Below are positions 1-56,668 of a stretch of 64,000 nt of DNA, piece after piece. Numbering within the stretch: the stretch's first letter is position 1; each line of letters begins with the position of its first letter. This DNA comes from Acidobacteriota bacterium. Its GTDB lineage: Bacteria; Acidobacteriota; Terriglobia; Bryobacterales; UBA6623. The notes under the pieces were generated by a model. The model was not told the DNA's origin and ran no database searches. It saw only the letters and a program-made list of their open reading frames with translations. The translations under genes were made by a program, and so were the position numbers. The DNA is taken from the NCBI GenBank assembly GCA_016125275.1, contig WGMB01000011.1, positions 124,001 to 188,000 of the forward strand. Reading direction: 5' to 3'.

Positions 1-3000
1 AGCCATCACAGCGAGCGGCTGGCCGTGGTCGGCTCCACTCCCGATGAGCTGCGCACGGCCCTGGCCGCCGCGCCGACGCGCTCGGTCGTCCCCGGACAGC
101 GTCCGCGCATCGCCTTCCTGTTCCCCGGCCAGGGCAGCCAGTCCGCCGGCATGGCGCGCGACCTGCTCGCCGCCGAGCCGGTCTTTCGGCAGTCGATCGA
201 GGCCTCCGAGGAGGCCTTCCGACCGCATGTCGAGTGGTCCCTGCGCGCGCTGCTCGAAGGCGACGACGAGAGCTGGACGACACGCATCGACCGCGTGCAG
301 CCGGCCCTGTTCGCGGTTCAGGTCGCCCTCGCCGCTTTGTGGAAGAGTTGGGGCGTCGTCCCCGACGCCGTCTGCGGCCACAGCATGGGCGAGATCGCCG
401 CCGCGCACGTCGCCGGAGCGCTTTCGCTCATTGACGCCGCCCGCATCATCTGTCGCCGAAGCCTGCTGTTGCGCCGCGTGGAAGGCCGGGCCGGCCTGCT
501 GCTGGCCGATCTCTCCGCCGAAGAAGCCCGTCAGGCCATCGCCGGCCACGACGAGCTCTGCATCGCCGGCGTCAACGGGCCGCGGACGACGCTGCTCGGC
601 GGCCCCGAGACGGCGCTCGACGCCCTGCTGCAGCACTTGACCGACCAGGGTGTCTTCGGCCGCCGGGTCAAGATCGGGACAGCGTCGCACACGCCGCAGA
701 TCGACGCTTTGGTTCCCGAGCTCACCGAAGCCTTCGCCGGCGTTCAGCCGAACCCGGCGACGGCCGCCTTCTACTCCACCGTCAGCGGCTCGGCGCAGCC
801 GGGCGAGCGCTGCGACGCGCGCTACTGGGTGGCCAACCTGCGCGAGCCCGTCGAGCTCTGGCAGGCTCTCCAAAGCATGGCTGCGGACGGTTACCGCCTG
901 TTCGTGGAGCTGAGCCCGCACCCCGTCCTGGCGCCTTCGATCGTCGACGGCCTGGGCGCCCTGGGGCTCGACGGCGCCGTGCTGCCGTCGCTGCGCCGGA
1001 GTGAACCCTCTCTGCAAACCCTGCTGGGAACGGCGGCGGACCTCTACACTCGCGGCCAAAGCCTGCGCTGGAGCGCCCTGGCGCCGGCGGGACGCCCGAT
1101 CGCCCTGCCCAGCTACCCCTGGCAGCGCCGCCGCTATTGGGTCGAAGCCGCCGCTGACTCCTGGCGCGGCTTGGGCCCCAAGCCCTTGCTAGGGGATCAC
1201 CGGCTCTACTCGGGCCAGCCCGGGACTCACCTCTGGGATCTCGAGCTCAGCCTCGAACGCCTGCCTTATCTGGCCGACCACCAGGTCGAGGGCGCGGCGG
1301 TCGTTCCCGGCGCGTTCTACCTGTCTGTCGCGGCGCAGGCGGCGGCAACCGTCTTCGAAGGGCCGGTGGCGGTCCGCAACGCGGTCTTCCAGCAACTGTT
1401 GACCGTGCCGGCCGAAGGCGCCGTCACGCTGCAACTGACCGTCCGGCGGCTTTCCGCCGGCGAGGCCGAGTTCCAGTTTTCCAGCCTGCACGGCGACGCC
1501 TGGACGCCCCACGCCGCGGGCCGGGTGGAGCAGGCGGCGAACGCCTCCGCGCCCAATCCGCTCGACTTGGCCGCCATCCGAGCCCGCTGCCCCGAGCGGA
1601 TCCCCGGGGCTGCCTTCTACCGGGCTCTGGCCGCGGCCGGACTCGGCTACGGCCCGTCCTTCCAGGGCGTGGCGGAGCTGTGGCGCGGCGACGGCGAGGC
1701 CTTGGCGCGTATCGCCACGCCGGCCGGCCTCGGCGCCCGAGAGCTGCACCCGGCCGTGATCGACGCCTGCTTCCAGGCCCTGGGCGCGGCTCTGTCCGGC
1801 GCCGACGAGGGGCTCTACCTGCCGGTCGGCGCGGCGACGGTTCGCCGCTTGGGCGACGGCGCCGAAGAGCTTTGGGCCTACGCTCGGCGCACGGGCGCGG
1901 ACCCCGTCGAGGGCGACCTGCAACTGGCCGACGAGCAGGGACGCGTGGTCTTCGAGACCCAGGGCTTCGCGCTCCAGCGGCTGGCGGCGTCGGCCGCCCC
2001 GGACGCCGACGCCTCGTTGTTCTATGAGGTCGCCTGGCGTCCTCAGCCCGCCCAGCCCCAAATCAGCGAACCCCAGGCAGCGGGCGCCTGGCTGTTGCTG
2101 GGCGACGGCCCCGATGGCCTCGCCGCCGCTCTTGCAAGCCGCGGCGCCCGCTGCTTGGACGCCTGGCCCGATACGCTGGCCGAGATAAGCCACATCGTCT
2201 TTCTGGCCGCCGGTCCGGCCCAATCCGCGGAGGCGGCTCTCGCAGAGTCCGTGGCGCTGCTCGGCGTGATCCAGAAGCTGTTGCAGGCGGGCCTGCGCGA
2301 CCTCCCGCGGCTGTTCGTGGCCACCCGCGGCGCCCAGGGCGACCTGCGGCAAGGCGACGCGCCCGTCGCGCCCGCCCATGCCGCGCTGTGGGGGCTGGCG
2401 CGAACCGCCGCGCTGGAGCATCCCGAGCTGGGCCTGCACTGCATTGACCTGGACGCCGAACCCGGCCCCCAGGACGCCGTCCGCTTGGCCGACGAACTGC
2501 TGCGCGGCGGCGACGAAGGGCAGGTGACCCTGCGCGGCGCCGAGCGCCGGGTCGCCCGCCTGACCCGTTGGGCGCCCTCCTCGGCGACCTCCGTGCGACC
2601 CGCCGGCGACGCCGCCTTTCGCCTGGAGATCGACCAGCCGGGCATTCTCGACGAGTTGCGGCTGCGCGAAACCTCCCGCGTTCCGCCCGGCCCCGGGGAG
2701 GTCGAGATCGAGGTCCGCGCCGCCGGCCTCAACTTTCTGGACGTGCTCTCGGCCATGGGCCTCAAGCCCGACGGCAGCGCCGTGATGCTCGGCGGCGAGT
2801 GCGCCGGCGTGGTCGTCGCCGTGGGCGAAGGGGTCGAGGAGTGGCGGCCCGGCGACGCCGTGCTCGCCATCGGCCCCAGTTGCTTCGGGCGCTACGTCAC
2901 CACCCGCTCGGCCTTCGCCGCGCCCAAGCCCGCGAACCTCAGCTTCGAGGAGGCCGCCGCCGTCCCGGCCGTCTTCCTGACGGTGTGGCTCGCGCTGATC

Positions 3001-46785: not shown

Positions 46786-49700
46786 CTAGAAGCGCAGCCG
46801 GAGCGACAGTTGGATGGATCGCGGCCCGCCGGTCTGGTAGATCGAGCTCAGCCCTCCCAACTGGCTGTTCTGGGTGCTGTAGGCGTAGCCGAAGCGGCTG
46901 GCCCCGTAGCCCAGGTCGTTGTAGATCGCCCCAAAGATCGGCGTGTTGAACACGTTGAAGGCTTCAGCGCGAAGCTGCAGCCCAAGGCGTTCGGAGAGCC
47001 GAAAGTGCCGCCGCAGCGCCAAGTCCGTCTGGAAGGCGCTGAAGCCGCGGACCGGATTCCGGCCGGCGTTGCCGTAGACGCCCTCGGGAGCCGCCTCGAA
47101 CGCGTCGAAGTTGATGCGTCGTCCGCCCGGCGCTGAGGCGTCGTCGATGTAGAGCGGTTGCCCCGGCACGAGGTTCGGAGCGTACGGGAACGAGGAGCCC
47201 GAGTCCGGGCTCACCGCGCGGCGTCCGATCAGGTCGACCGGCATGGCCGAACGAGCCGACAGGCGGGCGTCCACGGCAAAGCCGTTCACGATCGCCTTCG
47301 CAACGCCGCCGGACTGGAGCCGCGGCAGGTCGTAGGTGGCCGCGAGCTGGAAGTTGTGCCGAATGTCGAAGTCCGAGCTGCCCCGCAGCAATTGCTCCAC
47401 ATCGAAGTTGGTCGAAGCCGTGTCGATCGAGTGCGACCAAGTGTAGGAAGCCAGCAACTGCAGGCCGTGTGACAGGCGCCGTTGGAACCGCGTCTGCAAG
47501 GCATGGTAGTCCGAATCCGAGCCGTTCGTGGTGATGTAAGCCGTGTTGCCGAACTGGTCGTTGGACTTGAAGTTCTCGTTGCCCAGATAACCCGGAACGT
47601 AGCGCCGCTGCAACAGCAGCCGCCGGCCGGCGGCGCCCACGTAGCTGACGGTCAGCGTCTGGCGCCCGCCCAGACCTTGCTCGATCGAGAAGTTCCACTG
47701 GGTCGTATAGGGCAGCTTCAGCTTGGGGTCATAGGCGTAGACAGTGTTCTCGTACGGAGTCGCCGTGCTCGGACCGGGCGTGGCGTCGATCTGCGCCTGC
47801 GTGGCTGGCGCGGCAATGCCCGTCAGCGTCTGGCTGCTGGCGGTTCCCACGCCCCAATAGCCCATCGAGGCCAGGTTGTTGCCCGTGTCGTAGAACAGGC
47901 CCGCCCCGCCCCGCAGCACCGTCAGGTACCGCGACGATTGCCGCAACTGGTAGGCAAAGCCGAACCGCGGCGCCAGGTTCAAGTAGCGGGTCTTCCACAG
48001 CGGCGTGCCCTGCGGAGAGAGCTTGGCCGTCACCAGGTCGTCCACCTGGTCCAAGTTGTAGGGCAGGTTGCCCTTCGCGTCGCCCGGCGCCGGGTTCACA
48101 TCCCAGCGCAATCCCAACGACACACTCAGCCGCGAATTCACACGCCACTCGTCCTGCACGAACGACGAGAAGTTCGTGTAGACCGGCGCGGCCGAGGCGC
48201 TGCTGAACCGAAACAGCGTGACGAACTGCGGCTGGTTGGCGCGCACCTGGTTGGCGTTCGAGAACACCGGGTACTCATACACCGACGGCAGCGGATGCGT
48301 ATTCCCCACCCGCCGGTAGTCCACGCCGAAGCGAAGCATGTGGCGACCCACGGAAGCCGTCAGCGTGTCCGTGAAGTTGAACTGGGTCTGGTCGATATCC
48401 CGCGGAATGATCCGCATGACCGGCCGGAGCCCAAAGTTCAAATAGAAGAACAGGTTGGCGTTGGGGTCCTGGAGCCCCGGCAGATCGTTGATCTCAAAAG
48501 GCGTCGCTCCGCCGAAATCATCCGGCGTAAAGCTGCCCAGCGAATTGTTCCAGGTGGAGTTGTAGCGAAACTCGTTGCTCACGCGCGGATTCAGGATGTT
48601 CGTCGCGCCCAGCGTCAGGGTCGTCACGTCGATCGAAACCGACGAGACATTCGCCAAGTTCGGAAGCTGTCGGCTCGAGGTGCTCGACGGCGAATAGTTG
48701 AAGCGGCCGAACACCTTGAACGAGTCCGTGAAGCTATGGTCCAGGCGGAAGCTGGTGGCGTCCAGGTCGCTCGGCGCGGAGTAGCTGGCGGTGAACGAAG
48801 ACAGGCCGTCGACGCCCGTCGCCGGGCCATTCGGCAGGGGGAAGCCGTTGAGCAGCGAATGCAGCTCGGGCGGCGCACTCTGGCGCAGCTCCAGGCTCGG
48901 GACGTCGAACGTCCGCGAAGCCTGCGGATTCCGCAGCCGCAGTCCTTCGTACGAGAAGAAGAAGAACGTGCGGTCCTTGCCCTTGTACAGGCCCGGAATC
49001 CAGACCGGTCCGCCCAGCGTGCCGCCAAAGTCGTTCTGCCGCTCGGCCTGGCGCGGCAGGCCCGTCTGGTTGTTGAACCAGTTGTTGGCGTCGAGCTTGT
49101 CGTTACGGAAGTACTCGAAGGCGGAGCCGTGGAGCTGGTTCGTGCCCGAGCGGGTCACGAACTGGAACTGCCCGCCCGGCGTCCGGCCGAACTCGGCGGA
49201 ATAGGTGGACGTGGTGGCCCGAAACTCCTGCAAGGCGTCAACGGAGACCAGGGACTGGGTCGTCCCGATAGCCGATTGCATCGGCGTCGAGCCGGAGAAG
49301 CCCGACCCGCGGCCCACACCGCTGCTGTTGTTGATCGTCAGCGCGCCGGTATTGGCGCTCACGCCGTCGATCATGTAATAGTTCGCCTCGGTGCGCTGCC
49401 CGTTCACCGAAAGCTCGCCGCTAAAACCCGTCCCCGACGACGGCACGGCCAGCACGCCGGGCGTCATCGTCAGCAGCGACTGAAAGCTGCGGCCGTTGAG
49501 CGGAATGTTCTCGACGAACTGCCGATCCACCACAGTGCTCACCGCGCCGTTGACGGTGTTCACGTCGAGGCCGCTGTCGGTCACGGTCACCGTCTCGGAC
49601 ACGCTGCCCACCGCCAACGAGATGTTGCGGGTCATCTTGGCGCCCACGTCGAGCGTCAAATCTTCGATCACCTGCTTCTCGAAACCATCGGCCTCGGCGG

Positions 49701-49998
49701 TAACCCGGTAGACGCCTGGTTGCAACGAGGAGAACAAGTAGAGACCCGCCGCATTGGTCGTCGTCTGCGTGCGGACCTCGGTGGACACCTGCTGAACGGA
49801 GATCGTAGCGCCCGGGATCACGCCGCCGCCGGCGTCCTTGACGAACCCCGACAGGTCGGCGTTCTGAGCCGCCGCGGAGACGGCAAACAGCGCCAACAGC
49901 GCAAGGACCGACGGTCCGCGGCTAGACAGTCCGGAGCCGACGGAGCGGCGAAAGCCTGGACGAAGCCCAGACAGGAAACAGCAAGATAGACTTGGCAT
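46786..49998 (-). CDS. Oar-like TonB-dependent receptor with carboxypeptidase-regulatory domain
   Basis: The ATG at 49998 follows GGGAGGAA at ten bases; 1070 residues. Signal peptide (about 25-45, ending VSAAAQ), then a carboxypeptidase-regulatory-like domain (DLSGFVKDAGGGVIPGATI). A divergent plug follows (VENIPLNGRSFQSLLTMTPGV, NGQRTEANYYMIDGVSANTG). The large barrel has YSAEFGRTPGGQFQFVTRSG and ends in a terminal Phe (IQLSLRLRF). This is the large Oar type that is hugely expanded in Acidobacteriota. Its ligand is not known; the linked PepSY gene points to iron-chelate or a related substrate. Confidence 0.93.
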   Translation of the reverse strand: MPSLSCCFLSGLRPGFRRSVGSGLSSRGPSVLALLALFAVSAAAQNADLSGFVKDAGGGVIPGATISVQQVSTEVRTQTTTNAAGLYLFSSLQPGVYRVTAEADGFEKQVIEDLTLDVGAKMTRNISLAVGSVSETVTVTDSGLDVNTVNGAVSTVVDRQFVENIPLNGRSFQSLLTMTPGVLAVPSSGTGFSGELSVNGQRTEANYYMIDGVSANTGALTINNSSGVGRGSGFSGSTPMQSAIGTTQSLVSVDALQEFRATTSTYSAEFGRTPGGQFQFVTRSGTNQLHGSAFEYFRNDKLDANNWFNNQTGLPRQAERQNDFGGTLGGPVWIPGLYKGKDRTFFFFSYEGLRLRNPQASRTFDVPSLELRQSAPPELHSLLNGFPLPNGPATGVDGLSSFTASYSAPSDLDATSFRLDHSFTDSFKVFGRFNYSPSSTSSRQLPNLANVSSVSIDVTTLTLGATNILNPRVSNEFRYNSTWNNSLGSFTPDDFGGATPFEINDLPGLQDPNANLFFYLNFGLRPVMRIIPRDIDQTQFNFTDTLTASVGRHMLRFGVDYRRVGNTHPLPSVYEYPVFSNANQVRANQPQFVTLFRFSSASAAPVYTNFSSFVQDEWRVNSRLSVSLGLRWDVNPAPGDAKGNLPYNLDQVDDLVTAKLSPQGTPLWKTRYLNLAPRFGFAYQLRQSSRYLTVLRGGAGLFYDTGNNLASMGYWGVGTASSQTLTGIAAPATQAQIDATPGPSTATPYENTVYAYDPKLKLPYTTQWNFSIEQGLGGRQTLTVSYVGAAGRRLLLQRRYVPGYLGNENFKSNDQFGNTAYITTNGSDSDYHALQTRFQRRLSHGLQLLASYTWSHSIDTASTNFDVEQLLRGSSDFDIRHNFQLAATYDLPRLQSGGVAKAIVNGFAVDARLSARSAMPVDLIGRRAVSPDSGSSFPYAPNLVPGQPLYIDDASAPGGRRINFDAFEAAPEGVYGNAGRNPVRGFSAFQTDLALRRHFRLSERLGLQLRAEAFNVFNTPIFGAIYNDLGYGASRFGYAYSTQNSQLGGLSSIYQTGGPRSIQLSLRLRF

Positions 49999-50540
49999 CT
50001 CGGGCGAATTCCTCCCGTCCGGACGCACCTGCATCCGGACGCAAAGCCGCAGCCGAGTCGCCTACAATAGGGTCGGTCGTCAGTTGCGGCTGTCGATCGG
50101 GGGCCTTCGCGGATGTCCCGTTCCAAAGTTCGTCCGCGGAGGCCCAACTCTTACATTTCTAGAAACCAAACAAGGGACGCTTTGCGACGGCGAAACCGCG
50201 TCCGTCGCGTGCCCCCTTGCGACCAATCCTAGATGTAATTGCAACTGGATGTCAATCACGCGGCCGGCCGCCGGAGCATCGGCTGTGGCAGAGCGTACGC
50301 CGCACCAGCAGGACCTGCACGCCAGTTTCAAGTATCGAAACGGAAGAACGGCGGGCGGGATCGCCAGGACCCGCGGGATCGCCCGATCAGCGTTGGACGC
50401 TCGGGGCTCCGCTTGCCGGCTTCCCCAGCGAGCCTTCGACAGAATACACTTGCGACCATACGGCACTATATACTTGTAATGGTACGTCGCTACGTACTTG
50501 TACTCGTCCGAGAGTCGCCGTGAATCGCCGGGCCACACCG
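49999..50540. other. Divergent intergenic region between the TonB receptor and the Fic gene
   Basis: About 540 bases without a convincing gene. It holds TACAAT within CTACAATAGGG (50062-50072, + strand), TTGCAACTGGAT (50239-50250, close to part of the operator at 25416) and the repeats before the Fic gene listed separately. Frames read through it lack start signals. Confidence 0.5.
50469..50502 (+). promoter_or_regulatory. Promoter-proximal repeats upstream of the Fic gene (candidate autoregulatory operator)
   Basis: TATACT (50469-50474) is a -10-like hexamer. The direct repeat TACTTGTA occurs at 50471-50478 and 50495-50502, and between them GTACGT-cgct-ACGTAC (50482-50497) is a perfect six-base inverted repeat. 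It lies 40-70 bases before the ATG, as for the operator of an autorepressing antitoxin-type domain. Confidence 0.5.
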
Positions 50541-52073
50541 ATGTCCACGCCCAACGAAAGACTCGCCGCCTCCCTCGACGTCCTCCGGAGACTCCAGCAG
50601 GATGGCCGACGCGTGTTCGAGTCCGGCGAGTTCAGCCGCCTTCACCGCAAACGCCTGCTCCAGAACGGCTTTCTGCAGGAGGTGATGAAGGGTTGGCTGA
50701 TCTTTTCGGGTCCGGGCGTGCGCGAGGGCGACAGCACCCCGTGGTACGCCTCGTTCTGGGAGTTCTGCGCTCGCTACTGTGAAGCGCGGTTCGAGCGGGA
50801 GTGGCGCCTTTCCCCCGAACAATCGATCCTGCTCCATGCGGAGAACACGGTCGTCCCCGCCCAAGTCGTCGTGCATAGCCCGAAGGGCGCGAACAACAAG
50901 ATCGATTTGCCGTTCGGCGCGTCGCTCTATGACTTGAAGGACTCTCGCACACCCCCCGCATCGGATCTGACCGTCCGTGACGGCCTCCGATTGTTCTCGC
51001 CCGCGGCCGCTCTGGTTCGCGTCTCGGAGAGCTTCATCCGTCGCAATCCGGTCGAGACCCAGGTGGCGCTTGCGAGCGTAGCCGACGCTTCCGAGATTCT
51101 ACGCCGTCTGCTGACGGGCGGTCACTCCGTCGTAGCCGGCCGCCTGGCCGGCGCCTTCCGAAGGATCGAACGCGCAGATGTAGCGGAAGAGATCCTCCAA
51201 ACCATGCAAGCTGCCGGACATGACGTGCGGGAAAACGACCCGTTCGCGCCGGAGCAGCCGGCCGGCGCCCTGCCGGACGCCGCGCCTCCGATCGTCAGTC
51301 GCCTGCGAGCCATGTGGAGCGCGCTGCGGAAGGATGTATTGGAAGCCTTCCCCGATCCGCCGGGCCTTCCTACGGACAAGGGCGCCTATCTCGGCTTCGT
51401 CGAAGACATCTACCAAAGCGACGCCTATCACTCGCTCTCGATCGAGGGCTACCGCGTCTCGCCGGCTTTGATCGAGCGCGTGGCGTCAGGCGGCTGGGAT
51501 CCGCAAGACAGCGAGGCGGATCGCGAAAGCCGGGACGCCCTCGCGGCGCGGGGATACTGGCAGGCCTTTCGGCTCGTCCAGGACGACGTCGTGAAGATTG
51601 TTAGCGGAGCCGAACCGGCAGACCTCGTCCGGAAGAGCCACCGCGCGTGGTATCGGGAGCTTTTCCAGCCTTGTGTGGTGGCAGGGCTAATCAACGCATC
51701 GGCCCTGGCCGGCTACCGCAACGAAGCCGTCTACTTGCGCACGTCGCGCTTCGTCCCGCCACGGTGGGAGGTCGTCCGCGACGCCATGGGAGCGCTCTTC
51801 GACCTTCTCGAGCAAGAACCGGAGCCTGGCGTCCGGGCCGTCCTCGGGCACTGGCTGTTCGGCTACGTTCACCCGTACCCCGATGGCAACGGACGCATGG
51901 CCCGGTTCCTGATGAATGCGATGCTGGCCTCCGGGGGCTATCCCTGGACCGTGATTCGCGTCGACGGCAGGACGCGCTATCTCACCACGCTCGACAGCGC
52001 CAGCATCGAACAGGATATTCGCCCGTTCGCTCGATTCGTCGCCGACCAGGTTCAACGATCCGGGAGACGGTAG
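50541..52073 (+). CDS. AbiEi-like N-terminal region fused to a Fic AMP-transferase domain
   Basis: ATG at 50541 gives 510 residues (a GTG eight codons upstream is possible). Residues 1-60 look like a winged-helix unit (LRRLQQDGRRVFESGEFSRL, RKRLLQNGFLQEVMKGW), followed by a beta-rich region (SPEQSILLHAENTVVPAQVV). Both are reminiscent of AbiEi antitoxins, which bind their own promoter. The C-terminal half is Fic: active loop HPYPDGNGRMAR with His444, canonical apart from Tyr for Phe. Upstream in the same chain is SLSIEG (Ser298-Glu302), the (S/T)xxxE(G/N) inhibitory motif that places the protein with class II, self-inhibited Fic enzymes. It would transfer AMP from ATP to a Ser/Thr/Tyr of an unknown target. 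Regulator, toxin and inhibitor may thus be one polypeptide. Confidence 0.88.
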   Translation: MSTPNERLAASLDVLRRLQQDGRRVFESGEFSRLHRKRLLQNGFLQEVMKGWLIFSGPGVREGDSTPWYASFWEFCARYCEARFEREWRLSPEQSILLHAENTVVPAQVVVHSPKGANNKIDLPFGASLYDLKDSRTPPASDLTVRDGLRLFSPAAALVRVSESFIRRNPVETQVALASVADASEILRRLLTGGHSVVAGRLAGAFRRIERADVAEEILQTMQAAGHDVRENDPFAPEQPAGALPDAAPPIVSRLRAMWSALRKDVLEAFPDPPGLPTDKGAYLGFVEDIYQSDAYHSLSIEGYRVSPALIERVASGGWDPQDSEADRESRDALAARGYWQAFRLVQDDVVKIVSGAEPADLVRKSHRAWYRELFQPCVVAGLINASALAGYRNEAVYLRTSRFVPPRWEVVRDAMGALFDLLEQEPEPGVRAVLGHWLFGYVHPYPDGNGRMARFLMNAMLASGGYPWTVIRVDGRTRYLTTLDSASIEQDIRPFARFVADQVQRSGRR

Positions 52074-52133: not shown

Positions 52134-53648
52134 TCAATCCGCCGCCGGCTTCTCCGCCTCCGCCTCGACCGCCGGCTCCCACCGCACAATCGGGTTCCGG
52201 GCCGCCAGCGTCTCATTCACCCGCCGAGTCCGCGTCGAGTGCGGCGCGTTCTTCACCATCTCCGGCGCGCTCTCCACCTCGTCGGCGATCGAGCGCATTG
52301 CGTCGATGAACAGGTCCAGCTCGCCCTTGCCCTCGGTCTCGGTCGGCTCGATCATTAGCGCCCCGTGCACGATCAGCGGAAAGCTCACCGTATACGGGTG
52401 GAAGCCGTAGTCGATCAGCCGCTTGGCGATGTCGCCGGTCTTGATCCCCTGCTTGGTCTGCTTCTGGTCCGAGAAGACCACCTCGTGCATCGAGCGGCCC
52501 TGGTACGGCAAGTGGTAGCGGTCCGCCAGCCCTTGGCGAATGTAGTTGGCGTTGAGCACCGCGTCGGCCGTGGCGTTGCGCAGGCCTTCGCCGCCGTGCG
52601 CCAGAATGTAGCTCAGCGCCCGCACCAGCACGCCGAAGTTGCCGTAGAACGCCCGCACCCGGCCGATCGACTGCGGGCGGTCGTAATCCAGCTTGTAGCC
52701 GTTGCCGCCGGTATCCACCACACGCGGCTTCGGCAGGAAGGGCTCCAGGTGCGCCTTCACTGCCACCGGCCCCGCGCCCGGTCCGCCGCCGCCGTGCGGC
52801 GTGGAGAACGTTTTGTGCAGGTTCAGGTGCATCACGTCCACGCCGAAGTCGCCCGGCCGAGCCCAGCCGACCAGCGCGTTCATGTTGGCGCCGTCCATGT
52901 AGAGCTGCGCCCCGCGGGCGTGCAGCAGATCCGCCGCCTTCGAGATGTCTTCCTCGAAGATGCCCACCGTGTTGGGGTTGGTCACCATCAGCGCGGCCAC
53001 GGAATCGTCCACGGCCTTGTCCAGCACCTCGAGGTCGATCAGCCCACGCTCATTCGAGGGGATCTCGCGGACCTCATAGCCGCACATCTGCGCCGTCGCC
53101 GGGTTGGTGCCGTGCGCCGAATCCGGCGCCAGAATCACTTTGCGGGCGTCGCCCTGCGACTCCAAATAGGACCGCACGGCCAGAATGCCGGTCAGCTCGC
53201 CGTGCGCGCCCGCGGCCGGCTGCAGCGTCACCGCATCCATGCCGCAGATCTCGCACAGGAACGACTCCAGGTCCCACATCACCCGCAGCACGCCCTGCGA
53301 GAGCTCTTCGGGCTGATACGGGTGCGCCCAGGCCAGCCCCTCCAGCCGCGCCACGTGCTCATTCACGCGCGGGTTGTACTTCATCGTGCAGGAGCCCAGC
53401 GGATAGAGCCCCAGGTCGATGGCGTAGTTCCACGTCGACAGGCGCGTGAAGTGGCGGATGACCTCCACCTCGCTCACCTCCGGAAAGCCCGGAATCTCCG
53501 CCCGCACGTTCTCCTCGCCCAGCTCCGAGGCGAGGTTCACCTCCGGCACGTCCAGCTCCGGGAGCTGATACGCCTTCTTGCCCGGCGAGGAGCGCTCAAA
53601 GAGCAGGGGCTCGTTCTGGACGATGTGCGATCGAACTTTCTTGATCAT
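52134..53648 (-). CDS. gcvPB: Glycine dehydrogenase (decarboxylating) subunit 2
   Basis: This 504-residue protein is the PLP-binding half of the split P-protein. The PLP Lys is K279 in LNLHKTFSTPHGGGGPG. The DGANMNALVG segment (252-261) and SAHGTNPATA (177-186) are also family-typical. With GcvPA it decarboxylates glycine and passes the aminomethyl group to lipoylated GcvH. The C-terminal 25 residues are acidic and Ala/Glu-rich beyond the usual end. It is last in the operon, ten bases after gcvPA, and meets the Fic gene tail to tail with 60 bases between. Confidence 0.97.
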   Translation of the reverse strand: MIKKVRSHIVQNEPLLFERSSPGKKAYQLPELDVPEVNLASELGEENVRAEIPGFPEVSEVEVIRHFTRLSTWNYAIDLGLYPLGSCTMKYNPRVNEHVARLEGLAWAHPYQPEELSQGVLRVMWDLESFLCEICGMDAVTLQPAAGAHGELTGILAVRSYLESQGDARKVILAPDSAHGTNPATAQMCGYEVREIPSNERGLIDLEVLDKAVDDSVAALMVTNPNTVGIFEEDISKAADLLHARGAQLYMDGANMNALVGWARPGDFGVDVMHLNLHKTFSTPHGGGGPGAGPVAVKAHLEPFLPKPRVVDTGGNGYKLDYDRPQSIGRVRAFYGNFGVLVRALSYILAHGGEGLRNATADAVLNANYIRQGLADRYHLPYQGRSMHEVVFSDQKQTKQGIKTGDIAKRLIDYGFHPYTVSFPLIVHGALMIEPTETEGKGELDLFIDAMRSIADEVESAPEMVKNAPHSTRTRRVNETLAARNPIVRWEPAVEAEAEKPAAD

Positions 53649-53658
53649 GACCGAGCTC

Positions 53659-54987
53659 CTAGCTGAAAGCGGCGGCGTACCGCTCGATCTCTTCGCGCGT
53701 GTTCATCTCCGTGGCGCACACCAGCATCCAGCCTTGCCAATCGGGGTTGAACCGGCCCAGGTCCAGGCCGCCGACGATTTTGTCGTCCAGCGCCTTGGCG
53801 TTGCCGGACTCGAGCTTCGAAGAGCTCGCCCGCACCACCAGCTCGTTGAAGTACGGCGCGCTGAACACGCGCTCCACGCCCTTGTCCGCCAGCGACCGCT
53901 CCAGGTAGCGGGACTTCGCCACGTTCTGCGCGGCCAGCTCCCGCAGTCCTTCCTTGCCGTAGATCGACATGAACACCGTCGCCATCAGCGCCACCAGCGC
54001 CTGGTTCGTGCAGATGTTCGAGGTCGCCTTGGCGCGGCGGATGTGCTGCTCGCGCGTGGAAAGCGTCAGGCAGAAGGCCCTCTCGCCGTCCTGGTCCACC
54101 GACTGCCCGGCCAACCGGCCCGGAATCTGCCGGATGTACTCCTTGCGCGTCGCCAGCACGCCGCAGTAGGGCCCGCCGTAGCTCGGCGGATGCGCGAACG
54201 ACTGCAGCTCGCCGGCGACGATGTCCGCGTCCGACGGCGGCTCCACCAGCCCCATCGCAACGGCTTCGGTGAACATCACGATCAGCAGCGCGCCGTGTTT
54301 GTGCGCCAGCTCCGCGATCTGCTTGGACTGCTCGATTACGCCGAAGAAGTTCGGCGACTGGATCAGCACGGCGGCCGTCTTGTCGTCGAGCTGCTTCTCC
54401 AGGGCCTCCATGTCCACCCGGCCGGTCTTCTCGTCGAAGGCCACCGTCTCAACGGGCAGCCCCTGGCGCTCCAGGTAGGCGTCCATCACCTCGCGATATT
54501 CCGGGTGCACCGTGCGGGCGGCCAGAATCTTCTCGCGCCGGGTGATGCGCACGGCCATCATCGCCGCCTCGGGCGTGGCCGACGAGCCGTCGTACATGGA
54601 CGCATTGGCGATGTCCATGCCGGTGAGCTGCGCTACCATCGTCTGGAACTCGAAGATCGTCGTCAGAATGCCCTGCGAGATCTCCGGCTGGTAGGGCGTG
54701 TAAGAGGTCAGGAACTCCCCGCGGGTCACGATCGAGTCGACCACCACCGGCCGAAAGTGCCGATACGCTCCCGCTCCGAGAAAGCATGCGTACCCTTCGC
54801 CGCTTTCCCGCGCCCGAGCCCGAAAGTACTCGATGATTTCGTACTCCGAGCGGCCCGCCGGAATCGCCAGCGGGTTCTCGATGCGGGCGCTCTGAGGCAG
54901 ATGCTGAAACAGCTCGTCAACAGACGAAAAACCGAGCGCGGCCAGCATTTCGCTGCGCTCTTGGGGTGATTTTGGAAGGTAGCGCAA
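53659..54987 (-). CDS. gcvPA: Glycine dehydrogenase (decarboxylating) subunit 1
   Basis: This 442-residue protein is the N-terminal half of P-protein in split form: MRYLPKSPQERSEMLAALG, TPYQPEISQGILTTIFEFQT, YDGSSATPEAAMMA, and the PSYGGPYCGVLA stretch. It forms an alpha2beta2 P-protein with GcvPB and contributes structurally to the active site, although the PLP Lys is in the partner. It lies seven bases after gcvH. Confidence 0.97.
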   Translation of the reverse strand: MRYLPKSPQERSEMLAALGFSSVDELFQHLPQSARIENPLAIPAGRSEYEIIEYFRARARESGEGYACFLGAGAYRHFRPVVVDSIVTRGEFLTSYTPYQPEISQGILTTIFEFQTMVAQLTGMDIANASMYDGSSATPEAAMMAVRITRREKILAARTVHPEYREVMDAYLERQGLPVETVAFDEKTGRVDMEALEKQLDDKTAAVLIQSPNFFGVIEQSKQIAELAHKHGALLIVMFTEAVAMGLVEPPSDADIVAGELQSFAHPPSYGGPYCGVLATRKEYIRQIPGRLAGQSVDQDGERAFCLTLSTREQHIRRAKATSNICTNQALVALMATVFMSIYGKEGLRELAAQNVAKSRYLERSLADKGVERVFSAPYFNELVVRASSSKLESGNAKALDDKIVGGLDLGRFNPDWQGWMLVCATEMNTREEIERYAAAFS

Positions 54988-54994
54988 GGGTGAC

Positions 54995-55384
54995 TCAGGA
55001 CTCCGATTCGGCTGACACGTAGGCCGCGTAGTCGTCCGCTGTCATCAGTGTATCGAGTTCCGTTTTGTCGGAGATCTTCACCGAGATCAGCCACCCGCCG
55101 ACGTGCGGATCCTCGTTGATCTTCTCCGGCGCGTCGATCAGATCCTCGTTGATCGCCACGATATCGCCGCTCACCGGCGCATAGATGTCCGAAACCGCCT
55201 TGACCGATTCGACGGTGCCGAACGACTGCGTCGCGTGAGCCTTGTCGCCGACCTTGGGCAGCTCGACGAAGACGATATCGCCCAACTGGTCCTGGGCGTG
55301 GCTGGTGATGCCGATCTTGGCCGTGTCGCCGTCGACCTTCACCCACTCGTGCTCTTTGGTGTAAAGCAGCTCTTTCGGATACAT
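54995..55384 (-). CDS. gcvH: Glycine cleavage system H protein
   Basis: 129 residues. Lipoyl attachment Lys62 is in GTVESVKAVSD; the preceding HEWVKVDGDTAKIGIT and following YAPVSGDIVAINEDL are textbook for the family. The lipoyl arm carries the aminomethyl group from P-protein to GcvT. It sits between gcvT (23 bases upstream) and gcvPA (seven bases downstream). Confidence 0.98.
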   Translation of the reverse strand: MYPKELLYTKEHEWVKVDGDTAKIGITSHAQDQLGDIVFVELPKVGDKAHATQSFGTVESVKAVSDIYAPVSGDIVAINEDLIDAPEKINEDPHVGGWLISVKISDKTELDTLMTADDYAAYVSAESES

Positions 55385-55407
55385 CCCTGGTACGTGCTCC
55401 TCTTTGC

Positions 55408-56511
55408 TCAGGCGCGATCGCGTTTGTAGAAAGGCCGCTTGACGACCTCGGCCGCGGTCTTCTTGCCGCGGATCTCAATGCCGATCGGCTCGCCGATCCC
55501 GGGCGCCGGCTGCTCGACGAGGGCCATGCCGATATTGGTTCCCAGGTACGGCGAAGGGCCGCCGCTGGTGACCACGCCCGCTTGCTTGTCGCCGACGACG
55601 ACCGGATAGCCGTCGCGGCCGATGCCTCGGTCGCGCATCTCGAAGCCGATCAGCTTGCGCGGCGCGCCCTGCTCCTTCTGCCGCACGAGCGCGTCGCGGC
55701 CGATGAAGTCGCCCTTGTCGAGCTTGACGATCCAGGCCAAGCCGGCTTCCAAGGGCGTAATGGTCTCGCTGATCTCGTGCCCGTGGAGCGCCATGGCGGC
55801 CTCCAGGCGCAGCGTGTTGCGCGCGCCGAGCCCGCAGGGCAGAATGCCCGCGTCCTTGCCGGCCTCGAGCACGGCGTTCCAGGCCTCCACGGCGGCCGAA
55901 GCCGGCACGTAGAGCTCGAATCCGTCTTCGCCCGTATAGCCGGTGCGGGCCAGAATGCCCGGAACGCCGGCCACCACGCCCTGCGAGAACCAGTAGTACT
56001 GAATGGCCTCGAGGTTGGCGTCGGTGAGCTTCTGCACCGTCGCCACGGCCTTCGGCCCCTGCACGGCGATCTGCGCCCAGCTCTTGCTGACGAAGTCGAC
56101 CTTCACGTCGCCCTCGGCCTGCGCGGCGATGTGCGCGTAGTCCTTGTCCTGGTTGGAGGCGTTCACGCAGAGGAAGTAGTGCCCTTCCCCCACCCTGTGC
56201 ACCAGCAGGTCGTCGATGAAGCCGCCCTGCTCGTTGAGCAGCCCGGTGTAGTGCGCCTGCCCGTCCTGCAGGTTCGCCACGCGGTTGCATGTGACCTTCT
56301 CCAGCAGGTCCAGCGCCTGCGGCCCGGTCACCTCGATCTCGCCCATGTGGCTGACGTCGAACAGGCCCACGCCGGTCCGGACGGCCATGTGCTCGGCGGC
56401 GATGCCCGCCGGATACTGCACCGGCATGTCCCAGCCGCCGAAGTCCACCATGCGCGCACCGGAGGCTCGGTGCACCTCATTGAGAGGAGTCTTGAGAAGT
56501 GCGTCGTCCAT
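55408..56511 (-). CDS. gcvT: Glycine cleavage system T protein (aminomethyltransferase)
   Basis: The start is set at ATG 56511, where homology begins (LLKTPLNEVHRASGARMVDFGGWDMPVQY); 367 residues. No clear Shine-Dalgarno precedes it. Folate-site and catalytic patches: GLFDVSHMGEIEV, CNRVANLQDGQAHYTGLLNEQGG in part, FVSKSWAQIAVQGP, LARTGYTGEDGFELY, GLGARNTLRLEAAMALHGHE in part. It transfers the methylene from the lipoyl arm of GcvH to tetrahydrofolate and releases ammonia. It is first of the four-gene operon; I see no glycine riboswitch in the 198 bases before it. Confidence 0.96.
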   Translation of the reverse strand: MDDALLKTPLNEVHRASGARMVDFGGWDMPVQYPAGIAAEHMAVRTGVGLFDVSHMGEIEVTGPQALDLLEKVTCNRVANLQDGQAHYTGLLNEQGGFIDDLLVHRVGEGHYFLCVNASNQDKDYAHIAAQAEGDVKVDFVSKSWAQIAVQGPKAVATVQKLTDANLEAIQYYWFSQGVVAGVPGILARTGYTGEDGFELYVPASAAVEAWNAVLEAGKDAGILPCGLGARNTLRLEAAMALHGHEISETITPLEAGLAWIVKLDKGDFIGRDALVRQKEQGAPRKLIGFEMRDRGIGRDGYPVVVGDKQAGVVTSGGPSPYLGTNIGMALVEQPAPGIGEPIGIEIRGKKTAAEVVKRPFYKRDRA

Positions 56512-56557
56512 GGGGGGAAAGCTCAAGCTAACACAGATGAGGGGCGAGCCGGAATTG

Positions 56558-56668
56558 GTGAGCAGTGAGCGGTGAACGGTGAACAGTGGGAAGAGGTCCT
56601 GCGTTCGGCCATCCGGCATCCCGCGCCGTCAGGCGCGCACTGCTCACGGCTCACCGCTCACTGTTCAC
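56558..56668. repeat. Pair of inverted heptad-repeat arrays between gcvT and the aldolase gene
   Basis: Left array (56558-56588): four tandem heptads GTGAGCA, GTGAGCG, GTGAACG, GTGAACA plus GTG. Right array (56638-56668), read on the minus strand: GTGAACA, GTGAGCG, GTGAGCC, GTGAGCA plus GTG. The arrays face each other across 49 bases and could fold into a long imperfect stem. They occupy the divergent promoter region. Confidence 0.8.

Follow-up and report, generated by a model that had tools for sequence, protein, structure and literature searches.

Two kinds of proteins, AbiEi antitoxins and class II Fic enzymes, provide the closest described counterparts of the gene product presented here. 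AbiEi of S. agalactiae (structure 6Y8Q) and Rv2827c of M. tuberculosis (1ZEL) share a two-domain fold made of a winged helix and a nucleotidyltransferase-like domain, and AbiEi has a repeated operator before its own gene. PMC7319586 describes auto-repression by both proteins and a requirement for positively charged residues of the AbiEi second domain in DNA binding. Class II Fic enzymes carry an inhibitory motif N-terminal to the catalytic core in the same chain (PMC9755527). FICD (HYPE) is an endoplasmic reticulum protein with TPR repeats, an N-terminal inhibitory S/TxxxEG helix and an HPxxDGNGRxxR loop. A switch of FICD between monomer and dimer is described in PMC6826200. CccR of Yersinia and CbFic2 of Coxiella combine Fic and a DNA-binding part in one chain. 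CccR represses its own promoter and AMPylates FtsZ with growth arrest (PMC9755527), and dimerisation of CbFic2 is driven by DNA binding (PMC10628234). SoFic is a self-inhibited class II AMPylase with anti-phage function.

The gene reported here resembles all of these systems and is identical in layout to none. Like AbiEi it is predicted to encode the two-domain fold and has a repeated operator-like region before its start. Unlike AbiE systems it has no AbiEii partner gene and is fused to Fic; its operator consists of direct 24-bp repeats whereas AbiEi operators are inverted repeats, its second-domain hairpin tracks bases, and its sequence is too distant for the Pfam AbiEi models. The Fic half has the inhibitory helix and loop of FICD, its closest solved relative, but its partner is the DNA-binding AbiEi-like part in place of TPR repeats. 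The helix-turn-helix of CccR and CbFic2 is C-terminal, whereas here the winged helix comes first and the Fic core closes the chain at aa 510; the CccR site is a palindrome, and the text consulted on CccR and CbFic2 reports neither an AbiEi fold nor a 24-bp array. The PADLOC SoFic model matches the Fic half (5.3e-20), the NCBIfam SoFic model NF046030 stays far below its cut-off (19.1 vs 550 bits), and the N-terminal part of SoFic differs from the AbiEi-like part. No description of an AbiEi-Fic fusion or of a hairpin-base code was found in the open-access journal literature searched, nor was the fusion found in the text consulted of works treating both AbiEi and Fic (PMC9755527, PMC11514479, PMC8562856, PMC3985639, PMC6504116). 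We regard the architecture as a variation of known kinds and the covariation between hairpin and bases as the surprising part.

The window, by which we mean the whole stretch of 64,000 nucleotides analysed (contig WGMB01000011.1 of assembly GCA_016125275.1, Acidobacteriota bacterium, positions 124,001 to 188,000), holds the features listed in Table 1. The AbiEi-Fic gene is present in a single copy in the source genome. Its start was placed at ATG 50541 because relatives start at the same place, mostly with M-x-x-P-N/H-E-K-L. The preliminary description had it begin at 50469, a position without a start codon that falls within the upstream repeats. Both neighbours lie on the opposite strand and were named from reading their translations: a TonB-type receptor gene (46786-50034) and gcvPB (52134-53648). 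The receptor has 1082 aa with an N-terminal carboxypeptidase-regulatory-like part, and gcvPB belongs to a glycine cleavage run with gcvT, gcvH and gcvPA (52134-56619). No AbiEii nucleotidyltransferase partner was seen beside the gene in the translated open reading frames of the window, nor directly beside it, by gene name, in 15 annotated plasmid loci.

Table 1. Features of the AbiEi-Fic locus (positions in the window; aa, residues of the encoded protein).
Feature	Residues	Position	Strand	Basis or remark
Putative operator unit 1, CAGAATACACTTGCGACCATACGG, core ACTTG at 50448		50440..50463	+	exact 24-bp period, conserved in relatives
Putative operator unit 2, CACTATATACTTGTAATGGTACGT, core at 50472		50464..50487	+	exact 24-bp period
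Putative operator unit 3, CGCTACGTACTTGTACTCGTCCGA, core at 50496		50488..50511	+	exact 24-bp period
AbiEi-Fic gene	510 aa	50541..52073	+	ATG at 50541, stop 52071-52073
Winged helix-turn-helix of AbiEi-like part	aa 1-60	50541..50720	+	predicted structure, fold match
AbiEi-like C-terminal (nucleotidyltransferase-like) domain	aa 61-230	50721..51230	+	predicted structure, fold match
Beta-hairpin SPKGANNKID, proposed base-reading element	aa 113-122	50877..50906	+	covariation with operator core
N118 (tracks core base 2) and N119 (tracks core base 0)	aa 118-119	50892..50897	+	covariation
Fic catalytic half, FICD-like	aa 269-510	51345..52070	+	Pfam, sequence and structure matches
SLSIEG, class II inhibitory motif S298-xxx-E302-G303	aa 298-303	51432..51449	+	translation, conservation in relatives
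Fic active-site loop HPYPDGNGRMAR	aa 444-455	51870..51905	+	translation, conservation in relatives

Fic is the sole Pfam family above cut-off in the window protein (45.7 bits for a cut-off of 24) and is matched in 44/44 family members. FICD is the nearest solved structure both by sequence (phmmer E 2.4e-16) and by fold (VIA Z 24.6, 221 residues, rmsd 2.7), and the SLSIEG region aligns with its inhibitory helix. SLSIEG and HPYPDGNGR (aa 444-452, 51870-51896) do occur in one chain, as had been proposed. Conservation was assessed in 100 non-redundant relatives, obtained from 116 proteins by removal of 16 that shared 97% identity or more with another. The inhibitory S298, E302 and G303 are kept in all 100, a conservation that speaks for the self-inhibition postulated earlier. 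All tested inhibitory and active-site residues, the loop H, D, G, N, G, R and R included, are intact in 97; the other three are one full-length protein with an altered loop (L009) and two that are cut short (L052, L151). In L009 the change is most likely an R at 444 and the upstream array is retained; this protein is possibly a repressor without catalysis. The class II label, which also follows general usage, is given because the inhibitory motif precedes the Fic core in the same chain. Judged by these motifs and matches, residues ~269-510 form a FICD-like Fic enzyme of class II whose active site and inhibitory motif are both intact.

Full-length relatives are found in 8/100 relatives' genomes and in 15/297 genomes of the phylum, the source genome being included in both counts. 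The 80 loci kept from GTDB genomes are 50-73% identical to the window protein, and their record titles name Acidobacteria, Proteobacteria, Chloroflexi, Gemmatimonadetes, Cyanobacteria and others; some of these labels may be wrong since many records are metagenome bins. Plasmids contribute 76 records at a coverage of at least 80%, among them a relative with 47% identity on the Bacteroides p5482 plasmid. Plasmid neighbours differ and are often transposases, partition, replication or toxin-antitoxin genes (15 annotated of 16 fetched loci). Other Fic-family and HipA genes adjoin two of the plasmid copies (L135 2604-3725, L137 1-2521). A relative is present on 8 IMG/VR contigs; among phage records just 2 match, and these over part of Fic only. 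Gene fragments occur in related genomes (L090, L091, L092, L093), two of them with an internal stop (L090, L093), which suggests that some copies are decaying. As read from these records, the gene is distributed in the way expected of a mobile accessory gene.

The main rival to a toxin or defence role is a homeostatic one, in which a FICD-like AMPylase/deAMPylase tunes a housekeeping protein and auto-repression merely sets its dose. FICD is bifunctional, and both the closeness of the Fic half to FICD structures and the invariance of the inhibitory motif would fit this explanation. Against it stand the patchy presence, the plasmid carriage, the spread of relatives with 50-73% identity over several phyla and the broken fragments in relatives, all of which point to accessory-gene behaviour. 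We consider a homeostatic role unlikely, although it deserves more weight than any other alternative discussed below.

The nature of the N-terminal half was decided by structure. Pfam, a sequence search of the PDB and hhalign were indecisive as proof of AbiEi kinship from sequence. Pfam AbiEi models matched 0/44 family members at E 0.5, and PF13338 had no match anywhere in the source genome. The PDB search returned only RPB_PLP3_R6 (2e-4), which we take to be a designed repeat protein, and alphaREP (2.7); both matches are regarded as chance. With hhalign, comparison to 23 AbiEi_4-type proteins from relatives and seven single ones gave a best E of 0.013 at a probability of 3.4%, while Fic-half controls gave E 0.088-0.56 (one locus, L128, lacked the motif used for strand choice and was dropped from the AbiEi set). 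The full-length predicted structure has a mean pLDDT of 93.5. A search with this model was filled by Fic structures and uninformative for the N-terminal part, hence residues 1-230 were modelled separately (mean pLDDT 94.0). The three top Foldseek matches of this model in the PDB are chains of the AbiEi structures 6Y8Q and 1ZEL, with E-values of 4.1e-4 (6y8q_A, prob 1.00), 1.0e-3 (1zel_A, prob 1.00) and 1.9e-3, followed by a nucleotidyltransferase at E 0.16. VIA also ranks them first, with Z 10.4 for 1ZEL (213 residues aligned, rmsd 4.8) and Z 9.0 for 6Y8Q (178 residues, rmsd 5.0). In both searches the match covers the two domains but is distant.

MenT1 nucleotidyltransferases come close behind in VIA (Z 8.0 and 7.5). 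A second enzyme, composed of a MenT/MNT-like nucleotidyltransferase and a winged helix in place of an AbiEi repressor, would agree with the Z 8.0 of MenT1 8an5 over 139 residues and the Z 7.7 of LnuA. The 8an5 match is, however, confined to residues 67-209 whereas the two AbiEi structures lead with both aligners over both subdomains, and we find this explanation improbable. Residues ~1-230 thus carry the two-domain AbiEi fold in the predicted structure. The AbiEi-like N-terminus announced in the preliminary description holds at the level of fold; the profile search proposed for it matched no Pfam AbiEi model and profile-profile similarity is weak. We use the term "AbiEi-like by fold" and refrain from calling the protein a member of the type IV AbiE systems because sequence methods miss the likeness and the toxin gene is absent. 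A profile of residues 1-230 matches 15/297 phylum genomes, in 14 of them within frames of at least 518 aa and in one (L151) within a 326-aa frame at a contig end. The whole protein matches the same 15 genomes, so the AbiEi-like part is not found apart from Fic in this sample.

The region preceding the gene had been described as a symmetric site with nested direct and inverted repeats. Repeats exist, and they are three direct 24-bp units (50440-50511) that all share the core ACTTG, not mainly a palindrome at 50465-50505. Inverted symmetry is present as a partial dyad in the family consensus unit, CAtaATAnACTTGTAaTngcaCag, roughly TGTA-N4-YACA (correlation 0.53 at one shift, -0.23 to 0.31 at others). 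In the first set of 80 loci, 77 are most self-similar at lag 24, and in 66 at most 3 of 300 mononucleotide shuffles were as good; the window's own stretch is better than 300/300. Among the 100 non-redundant loci, 95 have the self-similarity peak of the 115-nt upstream stretch at precisely lag 24, vs 13/98 for stretches far upstream and 25/100 for stretches within the gene, where coding sequence favours multiples of three. A search with the core masked, apart from a bonus for likeness of neighbouring units, found arrays of at least two units scoring above 100/100 shuffles in 96/100 loci from several phyla. Units near their own core number four in 53 of these arrays, three in 17 and five in 17. 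The four loci whose arrays are not above all shuffles are L069, L154, L155 and L159. The arrays of L154-L157 repeat every 23 bp instead of 24; these four are contigs of the viral collection that encode relatives of 44% identity with a core of about AACAAAGTAAATTT and a GGTS hairpin. Upstream of the gene, 35/100 loci have a sigma-70-like pair vs 2.0 expected from shuffles; a simple scan revealed no promoter in the window's own array.

ACTTG triples at the 24-bp period show no enrichment in the source genome relative to a reversed-pattern control: 31 (15 + 16) vs 51 (27 + 24) with at most 2 mismatches. The only other exact triple (C13:366883) is, when read by eye, without the CA..AT flanks. Because of these two results the array appears local to the AbiEi-Fic gene in the source genome. 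They also weigh against the view that the N-terminal half regulates other genes, its own repeats being one target of many and the Fic half vestigial. PMC9755527 does report effects of CccR on other genes, but the retention of Fic residues in nearly all relatives argues in addition against a vestigial enzyme. This alternative seems to us slightly less credible still than a second enzyme.

The core word of the repeat varies among relatives together with the hairpin of the AbiEi C-terminal domain, and a core change affects most units of one array together. Residues 118 and 119 lie at the turn of this predicted hairpin (strands 108-113 and 119-122). In the first set, where 63 loci were labelled ACTT or GCTT, residue 119 is N in 46/46 of the former and H in 17/17 of the latter and no other column equals it in mutual information (0.84, the next being 0.49). 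Loci added later from plasmids, phylum genomes and viral contigs follow the same pattern: A is present in each of seven new non-redundant N119 loci (L133, L134, L135, L136, L139, L160 and L161, the last after a shift of register by one base made by hand, without which base 0 is T), and G in each of three new H119 loci (L138, L143, L151). Over 93 loci, residue 119 is paired with base 0 as N-A in 58/58 and H-G in 20/20, and in the remaining loci as K with C (2) or G (3), G with C (2) or A (1), R with G (2), A with G (1), S with C (1), Q with C (1) and M with C (2). Residue 118 is paired with base 2 as N with T (82) or G (3), G with G (6) or T (1) and R with G (1). The code thus has exceptions: K119 and G119 are mixed, N118 goes with G in 3/85 and G118 with T in 1/7. 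These counts omit the four arrays not above all shuffles and three loci of unclear register, of which L032 and L023 have ACTTG units with N119, in agreement with the code, and L148 is unreadable. A hairpin RN(K/R/A) goes with the cores GCTAA or GATAA (L153, L146, L149, L150) and GN(K/M/S)(P/K) with CCTA (L082, L147, L163, L165, L166); a wider hairpin-core code may be readable from more loci.

After removal of whole-protein distance, the partial correlation is 0.90 between base 0 and residue 119 (next residue 0.35) and 0.71 between base 2 and residue 118 (next residue 0.42). Bases 3 and 4 are confounded with deep clade. The best covarying window of seven residues is 117-123 (r 0.50), followed by the Fic window 436-442 (0.44), whose signal we take as a deep-clade effect. 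The winged helix was considered as the main tracker of the core and set aside because its best window (23-29) reaches only r 0.32. On a first tree of the Fic half built by a quick method, only one independent pair lay on well-supported branches. A careful tree, for which residues 100-135 were left out, has 8 changes of residue 119 and 8 of base 0; in 7 independent pairs on well-supported branches the two change in parallel in 6.7 on average and in opposite directions in 0 (p 0.016). For N/H with A/G alone, 5/5 pairs are parallel, a number too small to reach significance (p 0.06). For residue 118 with base 2, the changes are parallel in 5.9 of 7 pairs and opposite in 0.2 (median p 0.03).

Asparagine-adenine and histidine-guanine pairing are known from DNA recognition. 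That the hairpin reads the repeat would be the simplest account of the covariation, and the comparison of relatives argues strongly for binding of the array by its own protein. The self-repression suggested earlier gains support, at the level of sequence comparison, from the conserved 24-bp array whose core changes alongside the hairpin. As far as the literature was searched, base reading by an AbiEi second domain would be new. In the least probable alternative, a different factor binds the repeats, or they are mere tandem promoter elements, and the 118/119 link is due to shared ancestry; the promoter-like hexamers upstream and the clade dependence of bases 3 and 4 are in its favour, but the joint switches of base 0 and residue 119, the N/H-A/G pairs included, the concerted core changes within arrays and the company of array and gene across phyla make it very hard to sustain.

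Comparison of the relatives establishes the fusion, the array, the covariation and the intact motifs. We consider it probable that they belong to a single-chain, self-repressing and self-inhibited Fic enzyme, with the AbiEi-like repressor seated on its own array and the Fic half held by E302. One protein would bind each 24-bp unit upstream of its gene, the winged helix reading the constant CA..AT part and hairpin 113-122 the variable core, with base 0 read by residue 119 and base 2 by residue 118. Occupancy of the promoter would limit expression to a low level while E302 of the SLSIEG helix holds the Fic half off. Candidate triggers are loss of DNA binding, an altered oligomeric state and the arrival of an element; the trigger would increase expression and release the Fic site. 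Stripping the protein from DNA would be one event that both raises its level and changes its oligomeric state. The freed Fic site would then AMPylate a cell target and growth would stop. Each step has a precedent among Fic proteins: auto-repression and FtsZ AMPylation by CccR, DNA-driven dimers of CbFic2 and the monomer/dimer switch of FICD. Repression, trigger, AMPylation, toxicity and defence are what we infer; from its class, mobility and patchy distribution the gene is probably a mobile toxin or defence module. A bolder extension, which we put forward tentatively, combines the two-residue hairpin code (119: N-A, H-G; 118: N-T, G/R-G) with an iteron-like array bound in tandem that might serve both as repressor site and as scaffold setting the oligomeric state, and so Fic activity, making the locus a one-gene toxin-antitoxin-operator unit.

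AbiEi and class II Fic are both well-known conflict modules, and here they are united in one polypeptide that occurs in several phyla and on plasmids. Its relatives supply naturally varied operator/protein pairs on which a residue-base code is testable by single substitutions. AbiEi antitoxins in general may recognise bases directly with their second domain, which needs positive charge to bind DNA. Since putative DNA binding and self-inhibition reside in one chain, the family would provide a clean system for asking whether DNA sets Fic activity.
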